From the NCBI GenBank assembly GCA_021807675.1, contig JAKBCR010000002.1:22803-86802 (forward strand): a stretch of DNA of 64,000 nucleotides, given 5' to 3'. Numbering within the stretch: the stretch's first letter is position 1; every line of letters begins with the position of its first letter. Shown piece by piece: positions 767 to 63,991 of this stretch. A model generated the notes under the pieces. The model was not told the origin of the DNA, made no database searches, and worked only from the letters and a program-made list of their open reading frames with translations. The translations under genes and the position numbers were made by a program. The DNA is from Pseudomonadota bacterium. Lineage in GTDB: Bacteria; Pseudomonadota; Gammaproteobacteria; Steroidobacterales; Steroidobacteraceae.

Positions 767-780
767 CCGCTGCGGCCGTC

Positions 781-894
781 CGCAAGCAAGTGATTAAAGC
801 GGCCCAGGGCCGCTCCCTGGGCCGCGAGATCGACCCCTGTACGTCGGCTGGCCGCGCACAAAGCGACGCCAGGCGACTTTGCGCCAATCGACTA
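781..894 (+). repeat. R2 structured intergenic repeat, copy A
   Basis: CGCAAGCAAGTGATTAAAGCGGCCCAGGGCCGCTCCCTGGGCCGCG...GCGCACAAAGCGACGCCAGGCGACTTTGCGCCAATCGACTA; two hairpins; similar copies near 22954, 29605, 39831. Confidence 0.8.
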
Positions 895-2952
895 GAGCAA
901 GGGGATCATCAACAGGGCGACGATGTTGATGATCTTGATCAGGGGATTGATGGCCGGGCCGGCGGTGTCCTTGTACGGGTCGCCGACTGTGTCACCGGTT
1001 ACGGCGGCTTTGTGTGCATCGGAGCCCTTGCCGCCGTAGTTGCCTTCCTCGATGTACTTCTTGGCGTTATCCCAGGCGCCACCGCCGGTGGTCATGGAGA
1101 CCGCGATGAAGAAGCCGGTCACGATGGTGCCGATGAGAAGACCGCCGAGTGCCTTGATGCCGGCGCCTGGGCCGAGCAGGTAGTTCATGACCACTACCAG
1201 CACGATGGGCACCACGATCGGCAACAGCGAGGGAATGATCATCTCGCCGATGGCGGCACGGGTCAGCAGGTCGACGGCCCGCGAGTAGTCGGGCTTGGCG
1301 GTTCCCTCCATGATGCCCTTGATCTCGCGGAACTGGCGCCGGACTTCGGTGACCACCGAGCCGGCGGCCCGTCCCACCGCCTCCATGGCGAGCGCGCCGA
1401 AGAGGTAGGGCACCATGCCACCGATGAAGAGCCCGATGATGACCGCCGGATCGGAGAGGGAGAAGGTCGTGAGCTTGCCGGCGGCCTCGAGGTTATGCGT
1501 GTAGTCGGCGAAGAGCACCAGCGCCGCAAGGGCCGCGGAGCCGATCGCATAGCCCTTGGTCACCGCTTTGGTCGTATTGCCGACCGCATCGAGCGGATCG
1601 GTGATGTCGCGCACCTGCTTGGGCAGGCCCGCCATCTCGGCGATGCCGCCGGCGTTGTCGGTAATCGGGCCATACGCGTCGAGCGCCACGATCATGCCGG
1701 TCATCGACAGCATGGCGGTGGCGGCGATCGCGATGCCGTAGAGGCCGGCGCCGCTCGCCTCACCCAGCCTGAACGAGCTCCAGATCGCCAGGCACACGGC
1801 GATGACGGGCAGCGCCGTCGCCTTCATGGAGACGCCGAGGCCTGCGATGATGTTCGTCGCATGGCCGGTCTGCGATGCGGCGGAGATCTTGCGGACCGGG
1901 CTGTATTCCGTGGCCGTGTAGTACTCCGTGATGACGATGAGCGCGCCAGTGAGCCCGAGGCCGATGAGCGAGCAGCCGAAGAGCGGGTTGCCCTGCGCGG
2001 GCATCAGCGCGTGCGTGATGAAGTAGAAGCCGATCGCCGAGACGATGGCGGCGACGACGACACCCTTGTAGAGCGCGTTCATGATCTTGCCGCCCTCGCG
2101 GGCCGAGACGAAGAACGTGCCGATGATGGAGGAGACGATCGACATCGCGCCGAGGGCGAGCGGGTAAATGGCCGCGTGCAAGCCGGCAGCACGGCCCTGC
2201 TTCCCGAAAATCAGACCGCCCAGCAGCATGGTGGCCACCACGGTGACGGCGTAGGTCTCGAACAGATCTGCTGCCATCCCGGCGCAATCGCCAACGTTGT
2301 CGCCAACGTTGTCGGCGATCACCGCGGGGTTGCGCGGGTCGTCCTCGGGGATACCCGCTTCCACCTTTCCCACGAGGTCGGCGCCGACATCCGCGCCCTT
2401 CGTGAAGATGCCGCCGCCGAGCCGCGCGAAGATCGAGATCAGCGAGCCGCCAAAGGCGAGGCCCACCAGCGCGTGCAGCGCCGGCTCGTCGCCGATGAAG
2501 TGGCGCAGAATGGCGAAGTAGCCTGAGACGCCGAGCAGGCCCAGCCCGACGACCAGCATGCCGGTGATTGCACCGCCGCGGAACGCCACGGAGAGGGCGG
2601 CGTTGAGACCTCGCGTAGCGGCTTCGGCCGTGCGCACGTTCGCGCGCACGGAGATGTTCATTCCGATGTAGCCGGTCGCGCCGGAGAGGAAGGCCCCGAT
2701 GGCAAATCCTCCAGCGGTGGGCCAGCCGAGGAAGAAGCCGAGGAGCAGGAAGAGCACGATGCCCACGATGAGGATCGTGGTGTACTGGCGATTGAGGTAC
2801 GCCTGCGCCCCGGCCTGGATGGCGGCGGCGATCTCCTGCATGCGGGCGTTGCCGGTGGGCAGGCGCAGGATGGCGGTCATGGACACGACGCCGTAGAGAA
2901 CGGCAAGTACACCGGCCGCGATCGCGGCCCACAGCCACGTGGTGGCATGCAT
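892..2952 (-). CDS. hppA: Membrane-bound proton-translocating pyrophosphatase
   Basis: 686 aa multi-TM protein with [19 protein letters not shown] and [10 protein letters not shown] motifs of H+-PPases. Confidence 0.95.
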
Positions 2953-14351: not shown

Positions 14352-16358
14352 ATGAGTCGCCGAGAGCCGCTGGCCTTTGCATTGATCGCTTCTCTGGCCC
14401 TGTGGCAAGGAGCAGCCGCCCGTGGCGTCACCCCTTACCTGCCCCTGAACCTCGATCCCGACGTCGAGAGCGCGATCGAGCGGGTGCTGATCCTCGGGGA
14501 CGAGCCGGTCATGTCCCGCCCCATACCGGCGGCGCTCGTTCTCGAGGCCCTGCCCAAGGCCTGCAAGGTGGACCGGCCCCTGTGCGAGCTCGTTCGCCAT
14601 TATCTCGCCCGCTACATGCACGGCAGCGGCGTGGAATTCTTCAGCGCGTCGCTGGCGGATACGACGGGCGGGTCGAACATCACCCTGCCCAACCAGCATG
14701 GCATGAAGGCTCAAAGCCCCTACCAGATCTCGGGCGCGGCCTACATCCAACCTAACTCCTACATGCTGCTCAACGTCGGCGGCGAGGCCTACCAGGGTCG
14801 CGCCACTCCCACCGGTACGATGCTCAGCCTGGGATTCGATTGGGCGCAGCTCGATATCGGCTGGCGCGACCACTGGTGGTCGCCCATGACCGACAGCTCG
14901 ATGCTGATCAGCACCGAGGCGCCCACCATGCCCTCCATCACCCTCTCCAATTATCAGCCGCTCACCCGGCTGGGATTGCACTACGAGGTGTTCGTGGCGC
15001 GCATGTCGGAATCGAGCCGGATCCAGCTCACCACCGGTGGCCTCACTCGCGGCTATCCCAACATGGGCGGGACGATGGTGAGCATCGAGCCGGTGAGCGG
15101 GTGGTCGTTCTCGGCCCAGCGGGTGCTGATCTGGGGCGGCGGCGCGGCCGGCCCGGTCCCGATCAGCCAGGTCCTCAATGCGTTCTTCAACCCCGCCAAG
15201 GCCCAGTCCAGCGGCTTCGGCACAGGCATCCACGTCATCGGCAAGCAGGAAGCCTCGTTCACCAGCCGGTTCATCTTCCCGGGACCGCATCCGTTCTCGG
15301 TCTATTTCGAGTACGCCGGCAACGACACCAACGCCGGCAGGAACTACCTTTTCGGAAAGCCCGATATCTCCGCCGGCATCGAGTTCCCGCGTCTCGGGCC
15401 CTTTGATCTGACCTACGAGATCTCCTCGTGGGCGCCCACCTGGTACGTCCATGGCGCCTCGAGCGTGCAGACAGGCTATCTCGATGGCATCGTCAACTAC
15501 GGCGACAGCATCGGACACTGGTTCGGGGATCAGCGGGTGCTCGCCACCCCTAACTCGCTGGCGGACGCGGTCGGCGGCCAGAGCAACATGCTGCGGCTCG
15601 GCTGGACTCCGTCCTTCGGGGGCTACATGCAGCTGCAGCTGCGCGCTCTCGCCAACGAAGGACAGACCTTCTACGCGACCTTCCCGTACCGGAACGAGTA
15701 CCTGGGCTCGCTCAGCTATTCCTATCCCTGGCACGGCTACGCCATCGGCGCGGAGCTCGATGCCGGGCGGGATGTCTTCGGCAACCACTATGTCAGGATC
15801 GAGGGGTATTTCCGCGACGGCGATGCGCTCTTCAGCCACGGCGACACGGCTTCCGCGTTCACCGGAGCCCGCCCGAAGGGGGACGAGGTCTACGTCGAGA
15901 CCGGTGTCAACTACTACCGCGTTCAGGACAGCCCGCTGAGCACCATCCGCGTTTACACTCCGTGGACGGTAGGGCCGCACTTCGCAATCGGGGCATGGCG
16001 GCGCGTCTCGCTGCACCAGGATCTGGGAGTGGCGCTGGATGCAGACGAGATACAGGGGCGGGCGCTGCTTGGCGTACACATGATCAATTATCGCTACCGC
16101 TTCGGCCGACACCTGGCTCTGCTCGCCATGGCCGGCGCGGTGCGCTATTCGCTGGCGACACCGGCGTACGGCCTGTACCTCGGCGGTGGCTTCCAGTGGC
16201 GCAATATCCTGCCCGGCTGGGACGTCGGCCTCGAGTACCACCGCGTGATCAATGCGCAGCGCATGCGGGACCTGCCGACCGATCCGCAGGGCGGCACGCG
16301 CCCCGACTCCTTCCACAATATCTATTCCTGGGGCTTGTACCTGTCGCGTAATTTCTAG
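14352..16358 (+). CDS. Capsule assembly Wzi-like outer-membrane protein
   Basis: Signal-peptide-like N-terminus, YLPLNLDPDVESAIERVLILGDEPVMSRPI, long beta-rich aromatic-alternating sequence ending in YSWGLYLSRNF. Confidence 0.75.
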   Translation: MSRREPLAFALIASLALWQGAAARGVTPYLPLNLDPDVESAIERVLILGDEPVMSRPIPAALVLEALPKACKVDRPLCELVRHYLARYMHGSGVEFFSASLADTTGGSNITLPNQHGMKAQSPYQISGAAYIQPNSYMLLNVGGEAYQGRATPTGTMLSLGFDWAQLDIGWRDHWWSPMTDSSMLISTEAPTMPSITLSNYQPLTRLGLHYEVFVARMSESSRIQLTTGGLTRGYPNMGGTMVSIEPVSGWSFSAQRVLIWGGGAAGPVPISQVLNAFFNPAKAQSSGFGTGIHVIGKQEASFTSRFIFPGPHPFSVYFEYAGNDTNAGRNYLFGKPDISAGIEFPRLGPFDLTYEISSWAPTWYVHGASSVQTGYLDGIVNYGDSIGHWFGDQRVLATPNSLADAVGGQSNMLRLGWTPSFGGYMQLQLRALANEGQTFYATFPYRNEYLGSLSYSYPWHGYAIGAELDAGRDVFGNHYVRIEGYFRDGDALFSHGDTASAFTGARPKGDEVYVETGVNYYRVQDSPLSTIRVYTPWTVGPHFAIGAWRRVSLHQDLGVALDADEIQGRALLGVHMINYRYRFGRHLALLAMAGAVRYSLATPAYGLYLGGGFQWRNILPGWDVGLEYHRVINAQRMRDLPTDPQGGTRPDSFHNIYSWGLYLSRNF

Positions 16359-16359
16359 T

Positions 16360-16510
16360 ATGAAGCGCTGGATCCGGCCCTCCTGGCCGGCCCAGCGCGC
16401 CTCGAGCAAAAAGCGCGGTTTTTTGCTCGAGGCTCGCTCGGCGGAGCGAAGCAGTGCTTCGCTGAAAGCACCGCCTCGCCCTGCGGCGGCGGGGCACCTC
16501 CCTGTGCCTG
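16360..16510 (+). repeat. R1 structured repeat, copy 1
   Basis: GCGCTGGATCCGGCCCTCCTGGCCGGCCCAGCGC hairpin + GCCTCGAGCAAAAAGCGCGGTTTTTTGCTCGAGGC hairpin (16399-16433) + AGCGAAGCAGTGCTTCGCT + GGCACCTCCCTGTGCC; begins 2 bp after the stop of the Wzi-like gene. Confidence 0.88.
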
Positions 16511-16529
16511 GGTGCCTACCGATGGCGAC

Positions 16530-21750: not shown

Positions 21751-22956
21751 ATGGATGCGCCCGTCGAAGCCGCGAGAAAAACGCCACAAAGACCGACCGT
21801 CGGACTGGTGCTGACCGGCGGCGGCGCGCGCTCGGCCTACCAGGTCGGCGTGCTGCTCGCGCTGACCGAGCTCCTGCCGCGAGCCCGTAATCCTTTCCCA
21901 GTCATCGTGGGCACTTCCGCGGGCGCGGTGGCCTCGAGCGTGCTCGCGGCGGAGGCGCACCGCTGGCGCCGCGCGGTGTCTGGGCTCGAGAGCGTCTGGG
22001 CCAACTTCCGCACCGGCCAGGTGTTTCAGGTCGATCCCGTACACATGCTGCGCGCCGGCGCGCATTGGGTGCTCGCGCTGCTTTCCGGCGGGCTCGTACT
22101 CTCGCCACCGAAGGCGCTGCTCGACAACAGCCCGCTGCGGCAGCTCCTGGCGACACACGTGGACTGCGCGAGCATTCATCGCAGCATCACCCGGGGACAT
22201 CTGCAGGGCTTCGCGCTCTGCGCAACGAGCTATGCCACGGGTCAATCGGTCGCCTTTTTCGACGGCCGGGAGTCGATCCCGGAATGGACCCGCGCGCAGC
22301 GCATCGGCCGGCGCACGGAGCTGACCCTCGACCACTTGATGGCGAGCGCCGCGATCCCGCTGCTCTTCCCGCCAGTGTGCATCGGCCGGGAATATTTCGG
22401 CGACGGGGCCATGCGGCAGTTGAATCCCTTGAGTCCGGCCATCCATCTCGGAGCCGATCGGCTGCTGATCGTCGGTGTGCGGGCGCGGCGGGCCGCCGGC
22501 GTGGGCGCCGGCAGCGGCACCAGCCGCACCATGCCGACGCCGGGCGAGGTGCTCGGCTACATGATCGACACGCTGTTCACCGACCAGGTCTTTGGGGATC
22601 TGGAGCAGATCGAGCGCATCAACCAGCTCGTGAAGGAGGCGCCGTTCGCCGCGCGTGGTCTCAGGTCCGTCGACACTCTGATGCTGGCGCCGAGCATCGA
22701 TCCGCCCGAGATCGCCGCTCGATACACGGATGACATGCCACGGAGCCTGCGCGCTTTGCTGCGAGTCATCGGTGGGCGGGATGTCTCGGGATACCAGCTG
22801 GCCAGTTACCTGATGTTCGAGGCGGGCTATACGCGGGCCCTCATCGAGCTCGGCTATCGGGATGCCATGGAGGCGCAGTCGGCCCTGGTGGCGTTCATGA
22901 GTGGCGAGCGGCTGCCGCCGATCATGACGGCGGCAGGCGTCGCCCAGGCGACGTAG
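21751..22956 (+). CDS. Patatin-like phospholipase family protein
   Basis: LVLTGGGARSAYQVGVL, VGTSAGAVASSVLAAE (GxSxG) and DGAMRQLNPLSPAI motifs. Confidence 0.88.
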   Translation: MDAPVEAARKTPQRPTVGLVLTGGGARSAYQVGVLLALTELLPRARNPFPVIVGTSAGAVASSVLAAEAHRWRRAVSGLESVWANFRTGQVFQVDPVHMLRAGAHWVLALLSGGLVLSPPKALLDNSPLRQLLATHVDCASIHRSITRGHLQGFALCATSYATGQSVAFFDGRESIPEWTRAQRIGRRTELTLDHLMASAAIPLLFPPVCIGREYFGDGAMRQLNPLSPAIHLGADRLLIVGVRARRAAGVGAGSGTSRTMPTPGEVLGYMIDTLFTDQVFGDLEQIERINQLVKEAPFAARGLRSVDTLMLAPSIDPPEIAARYTDDMPRSLRALLRVIGGRDVSGYQLASYLMFEAGYTRALIELGYRDAMEAQSALVAFMSGERLPPIMTAAGVAQAT

Positions 22957-23070
22957 TTGATTGGCGCAAATCGCTCCCGGCGATTTGCGCAGCCAGCCCA
23001 GTGACTTTCTCGACCCCGCGGCTCAGGGGGCGGCCCTGAGCCGCTTCGTCACTTGCTTTCGCACGGACTT
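22954..23070 (-). repeat. R2 structured intergenic repeat, copy D
   Basis: Reverse complement: GTGCGAAAGCAAGTGACGAAGCGGCTCAGGGCCGCCCCCTGAGCCGCGGGGTCGA...GCGCAAATCGCCGGGAGCGATTTGCGCCAATCAACTA. Confidence 0.85.
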
Positions 23071-23081
23071 CGACTACCGAG

Positions 23082-23942
23082 CTACCGGCTCAAGCCTGTG
23101 TGACGGGCCGTCAGCGTGGGGAATTCGGTGCCGAACTGCGCCGCCAGCTGATCGACGATGTAGACGGAGCGATGCTGGCCCCCGGTGCAGCCGATCGCCA
23201 CGGTGAGATACCCGCGGTTGCTCGCGACGTACTCGGGAATTCTCGCGCGGACGAATCGCGCGATATCGGTGACCAGCGCCGCGACATGGGTCTGCCCCTC
23301 GAGGAAGCGGACGACCTCGGCGTTGTGTCCGGTGAGACCGCGCAGGGCAGGCTCCCAGTATGGATTCGGCAGAGAGCGCGCGTCGAACACGAAATCGGCA
23401 TCGCCCGGGATCCCGTGCTTGAAGCCGAACGACTCGAAGGTGAGCGACAGCCGGCCGGCGTGCGGCTCCCCGACGCGCAGCTTGATCAAATCCCGCAGCG
23501 CGTGCACGCCCAGCCGGGAGGTGTCTATGACGAGATCGGCCGCGTAGATGATGGGCTCCAGCACCTGCCGCTCCATCGCTATCGCCGTGCGCAGGTCGAC
23601 ATCGTGCCGGCTCATCGGGTGCTTGCGGCGCGTTTCGGCGAAGCGGCGCAGCAGCTCCTCGTCCGTGGTCGTCAGGAAGATGACCTCGCACTCGATCCCG
23701 CTGCGCCGCAGCTCGTCGACGAGCTGCGGAACGGTCGCGATCTCCGCGGCCGTGTTGCGGGCATCGAGCCCGACCGCCGAGCGCTCATAGGTGCGCTCCG
23801 GACTGCGCACGGCCTGGGAGATGAAGGGCTTCAGCAGCGCCGCGGGTATGTTGTCGATGCAGTAGAAGCCCAGGTCCTCGAGCATGTGCAGAGCCACGCT
23901 CTTGCCCGCGCCGGATAGCCCGCTGACCACGACGATTCGCAC
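23082..23942 (-). CDS. rapZ: RNase adapter protein RapZ
   Basis: MRIVVVSGLSGAGKSVALHMLEDLGFYCIDNIPAALL...IGCTGGQHRSVYIVDQL. Confidence 0.95.
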   Translation of the reverse strand: MRIVVVSGLSGAGKSVALHMLEDLGFYCIDNIPAALLKPFISQAVRSPERTYERSAVGLDARNTAAEIATVPQLVDELRRSGIECEVIFLTTTDEELLRRFAETRRKHPMSRHDVDLRTAIAMERQVLEPIIYAADLVIDTSRLGVHALRDLIKLRVGEPHAGRLSLTFESFGFKHGIPGDADFVFDARSLPNPYWEPALRGLTGHNAEVVRFLEGQTHVAALVTDIARFVRARIPEYVASNRGYLTVAIGCTGGQHRSVYIVDQLAAQFGTEFPTLTARHTGLSR

Positions 23943-28040: not shown

Positions 28041-28567
28041 GTCGCGAATGGCGCCCGGTCCCCGCGGGCCGCCAGCAGGTAATCGCAGATTTCGCGAACC
28101 GCCCCCCTCCCGCCGGGAAGACTCGTGACAATGTGCGCGGCGCTGCGTGCGCGTGGATGGGCGTCCGCTACCGCGAACGAGAGGGCCACCTCACGCATCA
28201 ATGGCACGTCCGGCACGTCATCGCCCACACAGGCGCAATCGGCAGAGGTCAGCTTGAGCTTGCGGCGCAGCTGATCATACGCGCCGAGCTTGTCGTCCAC
28301 CCCCTGCAGCAGATGACGTACTCCCAGCTCCCGGCAACGAGCGCGCGTCATGGAGGAGCGCCGTCCCGAGATGACTGCGACACGAATTCCAGCTGCGGCA
28401 AGCAGCTTCAGGCCGAGCCCGTCACGAACGTGAAAGACTTTCAGCGCCTCACCGCGCGGCCCGTAGTACAGCCGCCCATCGGTCAGGACGCCGTCGACAT
28501 CCAGCACCAGGAGGCGAACGCGGGCAGCGGCGTTGGTCACGCGCTTAGAGGAGGTAGAGCGGCTCAC
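28037..28567 (-). CDS. kdsC: 3-deoxy-D-manno-octulosonate 8-phosphate phosphatase
   Basis: RLLVLDVDGVLTDGRLYYGPRGEALKVFHVRDGLGLKLL...VGDDVPDVPLM. Confidence 0.95.
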   Translation of the reverse strand: MSRSTSSKRVTNAAARVRLLVLDVDGVLTDGRLYYGPRGEALKVFHVRDGLGLKLLAAAGIRVAVISGRRSSMTRARCRELGVRHLLQGVDDKLGAYDQLRRKLKLTSADCACVGDDVPDVPLMREVALSFAVADAHPRARSAAHIVTSLPGGRGAVREICDYLLAARGDRAPFAT

Positions 28568-29556
28568 ACTACGCCGGCGCGGAAGAGATCGTGCACATTG
28601 AGTGCGCCAATCAGGCGCCCCTGCTCATCGGCTACCGGCAGAGCGGTGATCCGGTGTACTTCCATCAGGTGCACCGCCTCGGCCGCAAGGTCCTGTGGGG
28701 CGATGGTCCTGCAGGGCGAGGTCATCACCTCGCTCATGTTGGCGCTGTGGACATCGACTTGGGCGTCGAGCGCGCGGCGCAGGTCGCCATCCGTGAACAC
28801 TCCGAGGATTCTGTTGCCGTCGTCCACGATGACAGTCATGCCCAGACCCTTGCGGGACATCTCCAGCAACCCTTCACCGAGTCGCGTTTGCGGGCCGACG
28901 CGCGGTAGCGTCTCGCCGGTGCGCATGATCTGCTCGACGTGCAACAGCAGCTGTCGTCCCAGAGCCCCACCCGGGTGCGAGCGCGCGAAGTCCTGCTTGG
29001 TGAAGCCGCGCGCCTCGAGAACGGCGACCGCCAGCGCATCTCCCATCGCGAGTGTCGCCGTCGTGCTGGCAGTGGGCGCCAGGTTGAGAGGGCACGCCTC
29101 TTCCGGCACGCTGACATCGAGCGTCACGGTGGCCGCCCGCCCCAGAGTCGAATCCGTCTTGCCCGCCATGACGATGAGGGGCACCGCGAGACGCTTCAGG
29201 TGCGGCAGCAGCAGCAGCAGCTCCGGCGTCTCGCCGGAATTCGAGAGGGCGAGGACTGCGTCCCCGCGCGTGATCATGCCGATATCGCCATGGCTGGCTT
29301 CGGCGGGGTGCAGGAAAAATGCCGGTGTCCCGGTGCTGGCCAGTGTCGCCGCGACCTTGCGCGCGATGTGCCCTGATTTGCCCATGCCGGTGACGACCAC
29401 TCGGCCCTGGCATTGCAGGCACACCCGGCTGGCGGCGGCAAAGCGGTCATCGAGGCGCTCGAGCAGTGCCTCGACGGCCCGTGCCTCGATGGCGAGGGCG
29501 CGGCGGGCAGCGGCGAGCAGGCGGCTATGGTCGGCGGAGGCGGCGGCGGGGCTCAT
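28564..29556 (-). CDS. kdsD: Arabinose-5-phosphate isomerase (SIS + CBS domains)
   Basis: VVVTGMGKSGHIARKVAATLASTGTPAFFLHPAEASHGD...ALSNSGETPELL...CBS pair; start MSPAAASADHSR. Confidence 0.94.
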   Translation of the reverse strand: MSPAAASADHSRLLAAARRALAIEARAVEALLERLDDRFAAASRVCLQCQGRVVVTGMGKSGHIARKVAATLASTGTPAFFLHPAEASHGDIGMITRGDAVLALSNSGETPELLLLLPHLKRLAVPLIVMAGKTDSTLGRAATVTLDVSVPEEACPLNLAPTASTTATLAMGDALAVAVLEARGFTKQDFARSHPGGALGRQLLLHVEQIMRTGETLPRVGPQTRLGEGLLEMSRKGLGMTVIVDDGNRILGVFTDGDLRRALDAQVDVHSANMSEVMTSPCRTIAPQDLAAEAVHLMEVHRITALPVADEQGRLIGALNVHDLFRAGVV

Positions 29557-29604
29557 TACCGATGATAATATCCGACCCTTGAGGGCCACCGGAAAGGTTG
29601 CGAA

Positions 29605-29712
29605 CGTGCGAAAGCGATTGAGTAAGCGGCCCAGGGCCGCTCCCTGGGCCGCGAGGTCGACTCCGGCGATGGCCGCGCGCTCGCGTGACAAAATCGCCGG
29701 GAGCGATATTAC
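29605..29712 (+). repeat. R2 structured intergenic repeat, copy B (distal half degenerate)
   Basis: CGTGCGAAAGCGATTGAGTAAGCGGCCCAGGGCCGCTCCCTGGGCCGCGAGGTCGACTCC...CAAAATCGCCGGGAGCGATATT. Confidence 0.72.
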
Positions 29713-29761
29713 TCGGCGCATCCCTGCGCCTCGGCCCCGCGGACCCGCCCTGCCGGGCGTT

Positions 29762-29851
29762 CAAAATTGCTCCAGGCAATTTTGTGGACGGCGCAGCCGG
29801 CCCGAAGGGCTCGGTGCAGGATGCACCGAGCAACCGGCAGGATGCCGACAT
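29762..29851 (+). repeat. R3 structured repeat, copy a
   Basis: CAAAATTGCTCCAGGCAATTTTG / CCGGCCCGAAGGG / CTCGGTGCAGGATGCACCGAG / CGGCAGGATGCCG consecutive hairpins. Confidence 0.8.
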
Positions 29852-29859
29852 CGTGCCGG

Positions 29860-31357
<1,498 letters not shown>

Positions 31358-31450: not shown

Positions 31451-31514
31451 CCATCTTAGCTCCCCATCGACCAGCGGTCGACCCCGAAACCATGAAGCGG
31501 TGCGCAGGCATGAC

Positions 31515-31767
31515 CCAGGCACAGGGAGGTGCCCGGCCGCCGCAGGGCGAGGCGGTGCTTTCAGCGAAGCACTGCTTCGCTCCGCCGAGCGAGCCTCGGG
31601 CAAAAAACCGCGCTTTTTGCTCGAGGCGCGCTGGGCCGGCCAGGGTGCGACGCATGCGTCGCACGGGTGGCCATGGAGGGACACCCCGGGCAGGCCCGGT
31701 TGGACCCGGGACGTGCGCGGAGCAGGGACCGCGCAGCGCAATGGCCGGATCCAGCGCTTCATAATTC
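31515..31767 (-). repeat. R1 structured repeat, copy 3 (expanded by ~95 bp in first hairpin loop)
   Basis: Reverse complement starts ATGAAGCGCTGGATCCGGCC and ends GGGCACCTCCCTGTGCCTGGGTCATGCC; contains GCCTCGAGCAAAAAGCGCGGTTTTTTGCCCGAGGC (31593-31627). Confidence 0.85.
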
Positions 31768-39770: not shown

Positions 39771-39830
39771 CTATCTCGCGGCCCTCTTTCACATGAGAAG
39801 GAGAGCCGGCCTCAGCCTCACTACGTCCCC

Positions 39831-39946
39831 GTGCGAAAGCAAGTGAATGAGCGGCCCCCGGGCCGCTCCCGGGGACGCGGGATGAAAGGCGGTCATAGGG
39901 CCGCGCTCGCCCAAAGCGGCGAAGCCGACTTTGGGCCAATAAACGA
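39831..39946 (+). repeat. R2 structured intergenic repeat, copy C
   Basis: GTGCGAAAGCAAGTGAATGAGCGGCCCCCGGGCCGCTCCCGGGGACGCGG...GCCCAAAGCGGCGAAGCCGACTTTGGGCCAATAAACGAGG. Confidence 0.82.
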
Positions 39947-40363
39947 GGAGAGCCGGCCTGTAAGCCGGGTTCTGTCGAGGGCAATCATTCCTCTGCGATC
40001 CACGTCGCCGTGGACCTCTAGCGGCCTACCCGGAAGCGCGCGCGGATCGGCGCTGCACACTCTGTTGCCAGAGCCCGCTGCTTCCCTATTTGGCCTTGCT
40101 CCAGGTGGGGTTTGCCGTGCCAGCCTTGTTACCAAGGCCGCGGTGCGCTCTTACCGCACCGTTTCACCCTTGCCGTCCCTCGCGGCAGCGTGCGCTGCAC
40201 TGCAGCACAAGCGTTCACCACGAGAGCTTAGGCGGTTTGCTCTCTGTTGCACTTTCCGTGGGCTCGCGCCCCCCAGGCGTTACCTGGCACCTGATCCGCC
40301 GGAGCCCGGACTTTCCTCCCCCCCGACCGAAGTCGGAGCAGCGATTGCCCGGCCGGCTCTCCT
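39947..40363 (-). ncRNA. rnpB: RNase P RNA, bacterial type A
   Basis: Minus strand GGAGAGCCGGCC...GGGGGGAGGAAAGTCCGGGCTCC...CAGGTGCCAGGTAACGCCTGGGGGGC...GAAAGTGCAACAGAGAGCAAACCGCC...CGACAGAACCCGGCTTACAGGCCGGCTCTCC; ends estimated from P1 pairing. Confidence 0.95.
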
Positions 40364-63821: not shown

Positions 63822-63876
63822 GTGCGGCGACGCATACCCCGCACCGGGGCCGACATCGGTCGATGGGAAACTACTA

Positions 63877-63991
63877 AGAAACGCTGGATCGGGGCATCCT
63901 GCCCCGCCCAGCGTGCCTGGGGCAAAAAGCGCGGTTTTTTGCCCCAGGCTCCGCCACCTGCGGCGGCGGGGCACAGTCCCTGTGCCTGGGC
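63877..63991 (+). repeat. R1 structured repeat, copy 4 (may continue past the window edge)
   Basis: ACGCTGGATCGGGGCATCCTGCCCCGCCCAGCGT + GCCTGGGGCAAAAAGCGCGGTTTTTTGCCCCAGGC (63915-63949) + GGCACAGTCCCTGTGCC. Confidence 0.88.

Follow-up and report, generated by a model that had tools for sequence, protein, structure and literature searches.

The 64-kb window analysed in the present study (positions 22803-86802 of contig C95 in G000, the window's own genome, a 5.1-Mb, 430-contig assembly) contains a short repeat, R2, made of a leader, two hairpins joined by a linker, and a tail. It raises the question of what such a repeat is: a structured RNA selected copy by copy, a relic whose palindromes are kept by mutation, or a DNA element that once moved. 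A sequence-only reading had described R2 as the second repeat family of the window and placed four copies, reporting the family at the one designated copy B here, and all four were found within a few bases of those positions (Table 1). The leader pattern occurs without mismatch in three of the four, as compared with a mean of 0.01 matches in shuffled sequence. Details of that reading were revised. The hairpin-1 variant TCAGGG..CCCTGA belongs to the copy at 22954. Moreover, the distal half of the copy at 29605, which had been called degenerate, is indeed altered, but the cause is replacement or interruption of hairpin 2 by a palindromic repeat (CAAAATCGC..GCGAT.TT, of the type that the reading had named R1) rather than point mutation.

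Table 1. R2 copies and copies of a third multi-hairpin repeat in the 64-kb window.
Feature	Position	Strand	Parts	Surroundings
R2 copy A	776..892	+	leader ~776-798, more divergent (CGTCCGCAAGCAAGTGATTAAAGCGGC); hairpin 1 799-825; linker; hairpin 2 854-884; tail CAATCGAC 885-892	tail adjoins TAG stop (CTA at 892-894) of H+-pyrophosphatase gene 892-2952 (-)
R2 copy B	22956..23066	-	leader ~23045-23066; hairpin 1 23018-23044, loop CCGCC; linker 22991-23017; hairpin 2 22964-22990; tail 22956-22963	tail adjoins TAG stop (22954-22956) of patatin-like gene 21808-22956 (+); rapZ (23082-23942, -) convergent on opposite side
R2 copy C	29604..29712	+	leader and hairpin 1 (29626-29652) intact; distal half is another palindromic repeat from ~29685	between SIS/CBS-domain gene (28564-29556, -) and bolA-like gene (29860-30096, +)
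R2 copy D	39829..39944	+	leader ~39829-39850; hairpin 1 39851-39878; hairpin 2 39909-39936; tail CAATAAAC 39937-39944	tail adjoins 3' end of RNase P RNA gene rnpB (39945-40360, -); sspB on opposite side
Third repeat	16356-16513	+	CTAGTATGAAGCGCTGGATCC...CTCGAGCAAAAAGCGCGGTTTTTTGCTCGAG...	directly after TAG stop at 16356-16358
Third repeat	31513-31644	-	CTAGTATGAAGCGCTGGATCC...CTCGAGCAAAAAGCGCGGTTTTTTGCTCGAG...	
Third repeat	63871-63958	+	CTAGTATGAAGCGCTGGATCC...CTCGAGCAAAAAGCGCGGTTTTTTGCTCGAG...	

Extent and architecture of the R2 family

The expectation that further copies exist genome-wide was borne out by a covariance model built from 15 intact copies, which returned 89 matches at E<1e-3 in the G000 assembly. 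Run against 60 relatives, this first model gave matches confined to the same genus, an uncultured genus of Gammaproteobacteria. A second model, built from an alignment with the leader left out (A4), matched 25 of 41 genomes of that genus, the richest of which carry 28 to 88 matches, and none of the genomes searched outside it (147 genomes of the order were searched, with ten other genera from the same family). Database records containing the exact leader were metagenome-assembled Gammaproteobacteria or Proteobacteria only; a viral origin was considered and rejected, as viral contigs lacked the exact leader pattern. R2 is thus a real genome-wide family of short non-coding repeats, present in about 90 copies in G000 and restricted to one genus.

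The core common to R2 across the genus consists of hairpin 1 (loop CCGY or CCRCG), a linker, hairpin 2, and the tail GCCAATNNAC. Copies are about 85-155 bp long, with palindromes of 11 bp and 8-12 bp, respectively, and in one variant hairpin 1 contains an extension of ~40 nt. In G000 the consensus runs CCGTNCGAAAGCAAGTGANTRA, hairpin 1, linker, hairpin 2, GCCAATNNACNAA, and it ends sharply on both sides, information having dropped to background level at 6 nt 5' of GAAAGC and, on the tail side, at ~12 nt 3' of the G in GCCAAT. The leader GAAAGCAAGTGA is strongly conserved but limited to the clade of G000, whereas elsewhere in the genus species carry another leader (..CCGGCMTGC..) or no recognisable one, together with a shorter linker ending in TGTCCGC. 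The proposal that the conserved leader is co-conserved with the hairpins did not hold: other clades keep hairpins, linker, and tail without that leader, and among 76 copies from G000 and its relative G032 the leader match is uncorrelated with the number of hairpin-1 mismatches (Spearman rho -0.04, p 0.74). Two other roles for the leader were rejected. It is not an independent motif or a pre-existing target, because nearly all examined leader matches are followed, at least partly, by the hairpin-1 foot; and for pairing with GTCAC of the linker, compensating changes were not seen by eye. Five copies (L112, L119, L123, and L126 in G000 and L204 in G032) form a subfamily that lacks the R2 leader, has the linker GGCGAAATGTGTGGGGTCTCGC, and is close to the type found in the genome G002; some copies of this subfamily sit just upstream of tRNA genes.

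Placement at gene ends and sites shared between species

Against gene calls from a simple codon model, 82 of the 84 copies in G000 fall between genes; 26 lie in convergent and 8 in divergent gaps, and the remainder mostly in codirectional gaps in both orientations, the orientation being near even (26 vs 20). In 800 kb of G032, 12 copies are in convergent, 17 in codirectional, and 3 in divergent gaps, as against 3.5, 17.9, and 10.6 expected from gap length (p 2.6e-6), giving densities per kb of 1.22, 0.34, and 0.10, in the order convergent, codirectional, divergent. A slight orientation bias is found in the codirectional gaps of G032 (13 same, 4 opposite). R2 copies therefore avoid promoters and concentrate in convergent gaps.

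Placement at the tail side is more precise still. The stop codon of the tail-side convergent gene falls inside the tail (at most 14 nt from the G of GCCAAT) in 61 of 85 copies, and at the exact offset of 9 in 26 of them. Stops at offsets 9 or 10 are TAG in 26 of 34 cases, as compared with 21% among 584 G032 genes; this excess comes in part from the tail's own preference for C/A there, and accordingly hints at target choice without proving it. Leader-side stops are spread out, with TGA/TRA of the leader supplying 15 of 84. An intrinsic terminator, in which a run of T comes directly after a GC-rich hairpin, was rejected: none of 61 G000 copies fits one inside R2, and 3 of the 61 have one nearby.

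Most of the sites compared between G000 and G032 are shared. By reading of alignments, both genomes have R2 at about 14 of the 20 sites mapped, where flanks are mostly 75-90% identical, and the orthologous copies differ by swaps of whole arms (whole hairpins) as well as by single-sided changes. Paralogues have a median identity of 69%; the two most alike (91%) stand in tandem, and dispersed copies reach 87.5% at most, values that give no sign of recent R2 copying. Copy B has an orthologous site in other species, and at the place orthologous to copy C no R2 was found in G032. No clean pre-insertion (empty) site was found; R2-free versions at two sites retain parts of both ends, which marks them as deletions and not as original absence. 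At site B, G062 has just the two R2 ends, fused (CCGAAAGC-AATAAACC), and in G035 the TAG stop held by copy B in G000 is occupied by a different multi-hairpin repeat, the third repeat of Table 1. Stubs without hairpins showed no excess over the control, in a weak test whose pattern had one extra base and would miss the G062 scar. Among internally deleted copies (L391, G062:C140:6655, and L379, G032:C29:121885) the left joint varies, whereas the right one invariably falls at the tail (CAAT.AACT). At one orthologous gap (L107 in G000, G032:C20:97277-97432) R2 lies in opposite orientations in the two genomes.

Stem pairing and the origin of R2

The two-hairpin architecture and its strong covariation, both claimed from the window alone, were upheld. 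In 20 diverse copies, which had been chosen as good ones, 97.8% of cells are paired and 16 of 23 pairs have changed on both sides, a result reached by none of 500 shuffles; only 1 of 451 cells is G-U, and covariation is similar in a second alignment (A2). An unaligned census of 184 copies gave 2805 Watson-Crick pairs, 47 G-T, 47 A-C, and 74 other mismatches. In an RNA maintained for its one-strand fold, G-U would be expected to outnumber A-C, so covariation that is strand-symmetric and without a G-U excess is not in itself an argument for a structured RNA. This near-pure Watson-Crick covariation looks more like that of maintained DNA palindromes, or of hairpins needed on both strands, than like that of one folded RNA; between DNA-level and bidirectional RNA-level selection the symmetry does not discriminate, because RNA folding on both strands would suppress G-U too. 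Stem covariation in a genomic repeat thus need not mean a functional RNA, and counting G-U against A-C provides a simple check.

These counts bear directly on the idea that R2 is a cis-acting structured RNA, either a 3'-UTR element or a processed RNA, whose one-strand fold is selected copy by copy and whose leader is a protein- or RNA-binding site. The very stable RNA folds (z -2.8 to -3.6), the covariation of both stems, the leader strongly conserved in one clade, the position at gene 3' ends, and the slight codirectional bias in G032 are all consistent with it. We nevertheless regard it as unlikely, given that G-U equals A-C overall and is not significantly in excess on the transcribed strand in codirectional gaps (37 G-U vs 26 A-C), that orientation in G000 is near even, that Rfam gave no match at curated thresholds, and that other clades lack the leader while the hairpins persist. 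A mutational account, in which template switching copies arm onto arm, would make the stems palindromic without present function and the copies decaying relics. Almost strictly Watson-Crick, strand-symmetric pairing, stem perfection that is independent of leader decay, and whole-hairpin changes between orthologous copies are in keeping with such an account, and template-switch mutation in quasipalindromes is a known process in Escherichia coli (PMC7202029). Pure arm correction, however, would not preserve the inner left arm of hairpin 1, which is nearly free of T (4 in 815), or the loop, which is conserved genus-wide, and single-sided changes also occur in orthologous copies. As the main explanation template switching is therefore improbable; it could help keep the R2 arms matched, while a further cause is needed for the T-poor arm and the conserved loop.

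R2 shows no terminal inverted repeats, has hairpins close to both of its precise ends, is anchored by one end at a short target, and is dispersed between genes, which is the geometry expected for elements of the IS200/IS605 type. On that ground R2 could derive, as a non-autonomous form, from a transposon of the IS200/IS605 or RAYT type (single-strand, Y1 HUH). Against this, neither palindrome has a GTAG tag at its foot, and the enzyme is wanting. The single match to the Y1 family (PF01797) in G000 is a decayed IS200-type gene (L031, G000:C373:9575-9936), broken in two and with an in-frame TGA, and the 3.1 kb of its locus that were read contain no R2; no Y1 transposase was found in the R2-rich genomes G032 (97% complete), G033, G027, G028, and G035, nor in G002, and G062 has fragments only. 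The suggested link to RAYT genes thus failed, and a Y1 derivation is very unlikely. An IS91/ISCR (Y2 HUH) partner was also rejected: PF04986 was found in only 3 of 42 genomes of the genus, namely G016 and G029 (both without R2) and G061 (the one R2-rich genome to have it), and not in G000, G032, G062, G033, or G002. The terminal inverted repeats of a MITE mobilised by a DDE transposase were not encountered, the ends CCGTNCGAAAGC and GCCAATNNAC not being inverted repeats, and inspection of the listed flanks by eye showed no duplication.

R2 is probably an old, non-autonomous, REP/ERIC-like DNA element that spread in the ancestor of the genus and is now resident at gene ends. The spread would most likely have been that of a hairpin-forming mobile unit, single-stranded or cruciform, whose tail end may have been joined next to gene ends by a putative mobilising enzyme that is not detectable now; the case for past transposition is drawn from dispersal, sharp ends, and a related, active-looking repeat rather than from a direct before-and-after pair. 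Most present copies would have been inherited where they lie, next to gene 3' ends; the palindrome is predicted to give a strong hairpin on both strands there, and R2 may act as a bidirectional block at mRNA 3' ends or may simply be tolerated. A more speculative proposal, to which we assign a low probability, is that R2 and the similarly built third repeat at 16356-16513 are both products of an undescribed single-strand or hairpin mobilisation system, neither Y1 nor Y2, which sets a constant end of the element beside the ends of genes (at stop codons and, in this case, also at the 3' end of an RNA gene). If this is true, such a system would provide genes with a ready-made hairpin cap that works on two strands.

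R2 among known and neighbouring palindromic repeats

The GTAG and CGTC super-families of REP/BIME repeats are high-copy intergenic palindromes found downstream of genes and in convergent gaps, and their termini often supply the TAG stop of flanking ORFs; the CGTC REPs have a CGTC (or TGTC) tag, a stem of 8-9 bp, CCA tails, and no known transposase, and frequent GT pairing has been reported for the GTAG REPs (PMC3733652). R2 resembles them as a short, high-copy, intergenic palindromic repeat located 3' of genes and in convergent gaps, with termini that often give flanking ORFs a TAG stop, but its unit comprises two unlike palindromes in a fixed order. It differs from the GTAG REPs in having no GTAG at either foot (hairpin 1 has NTRA, hairpin 2 GGCCGC or TGTCCGC) and in that G-T pairing is no commoner than A-C. 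Like the CGTC REPs, R2 has CCA(AT) after hairpin 2, and a TGTC/CGTC-like motif precedes it in G002-type copies alone; the window's clade, in contrast, lacks CGTC at hairpin 2, and the stem ends lack the AT pairs of that super-family. REPINs are composed of two inverted copies of one REP and are accompanied by a RAYT gene (PMC3116915). R2 shares with them a length of ~100 bp, two palindromic modules with a spacer, compensatory hairpin changes, and an extragenic location, although its hairpins 1 and 2 are unrelated in sequence and no RAYT was found. ERIC/IRU, YPAL, and other MITE-like intergenic repeats are 100-170 bp long and have strong hairpins, often with no known mobiliser (reviewed in PMC2229807); R2 is likewise intergenic with strong hairpins, a likeness that was judged by description only, but, unlike in a classical MITE, its two hairpins are separate and no inverted repeats are seen at its termini. 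R2 is best filed as a new two-palindrome, genus-restricted family within the REP/ERIC class. It enlarges the small set of extragenic palindromes that have spread without a recognisable RAYT, being genus-wide and present in about 90 copies per genome, and its measured traits (near-strict Watson-Crick covariation, a fixed stop-codon offset, and sites shared across species) make the spread and persistence of such repeats testable.

Two other palindromic repeats were encountered. Two copies of the third repeat are 98% alike over 132 nt, so that in this genus one or more palindromic repeats with such a placement have moved or been copied recently. The loop GCGCGG of the third repeat and the hairpin-1 loop CCGCGC of R2 copies in other clades are reverse complements. 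The other repeat, CGTCCAAAATCGC..GCGATTTTG plus GCCGGCCCGAAGGGCTCGG, lies at ~29685-29830 of the window, inside or replacing hairpin 2 of R2, and is also present at many other R2 loci (L026, L028, L012, L016, L020, and L022); its CGTC start recalls the CGTC REPs.
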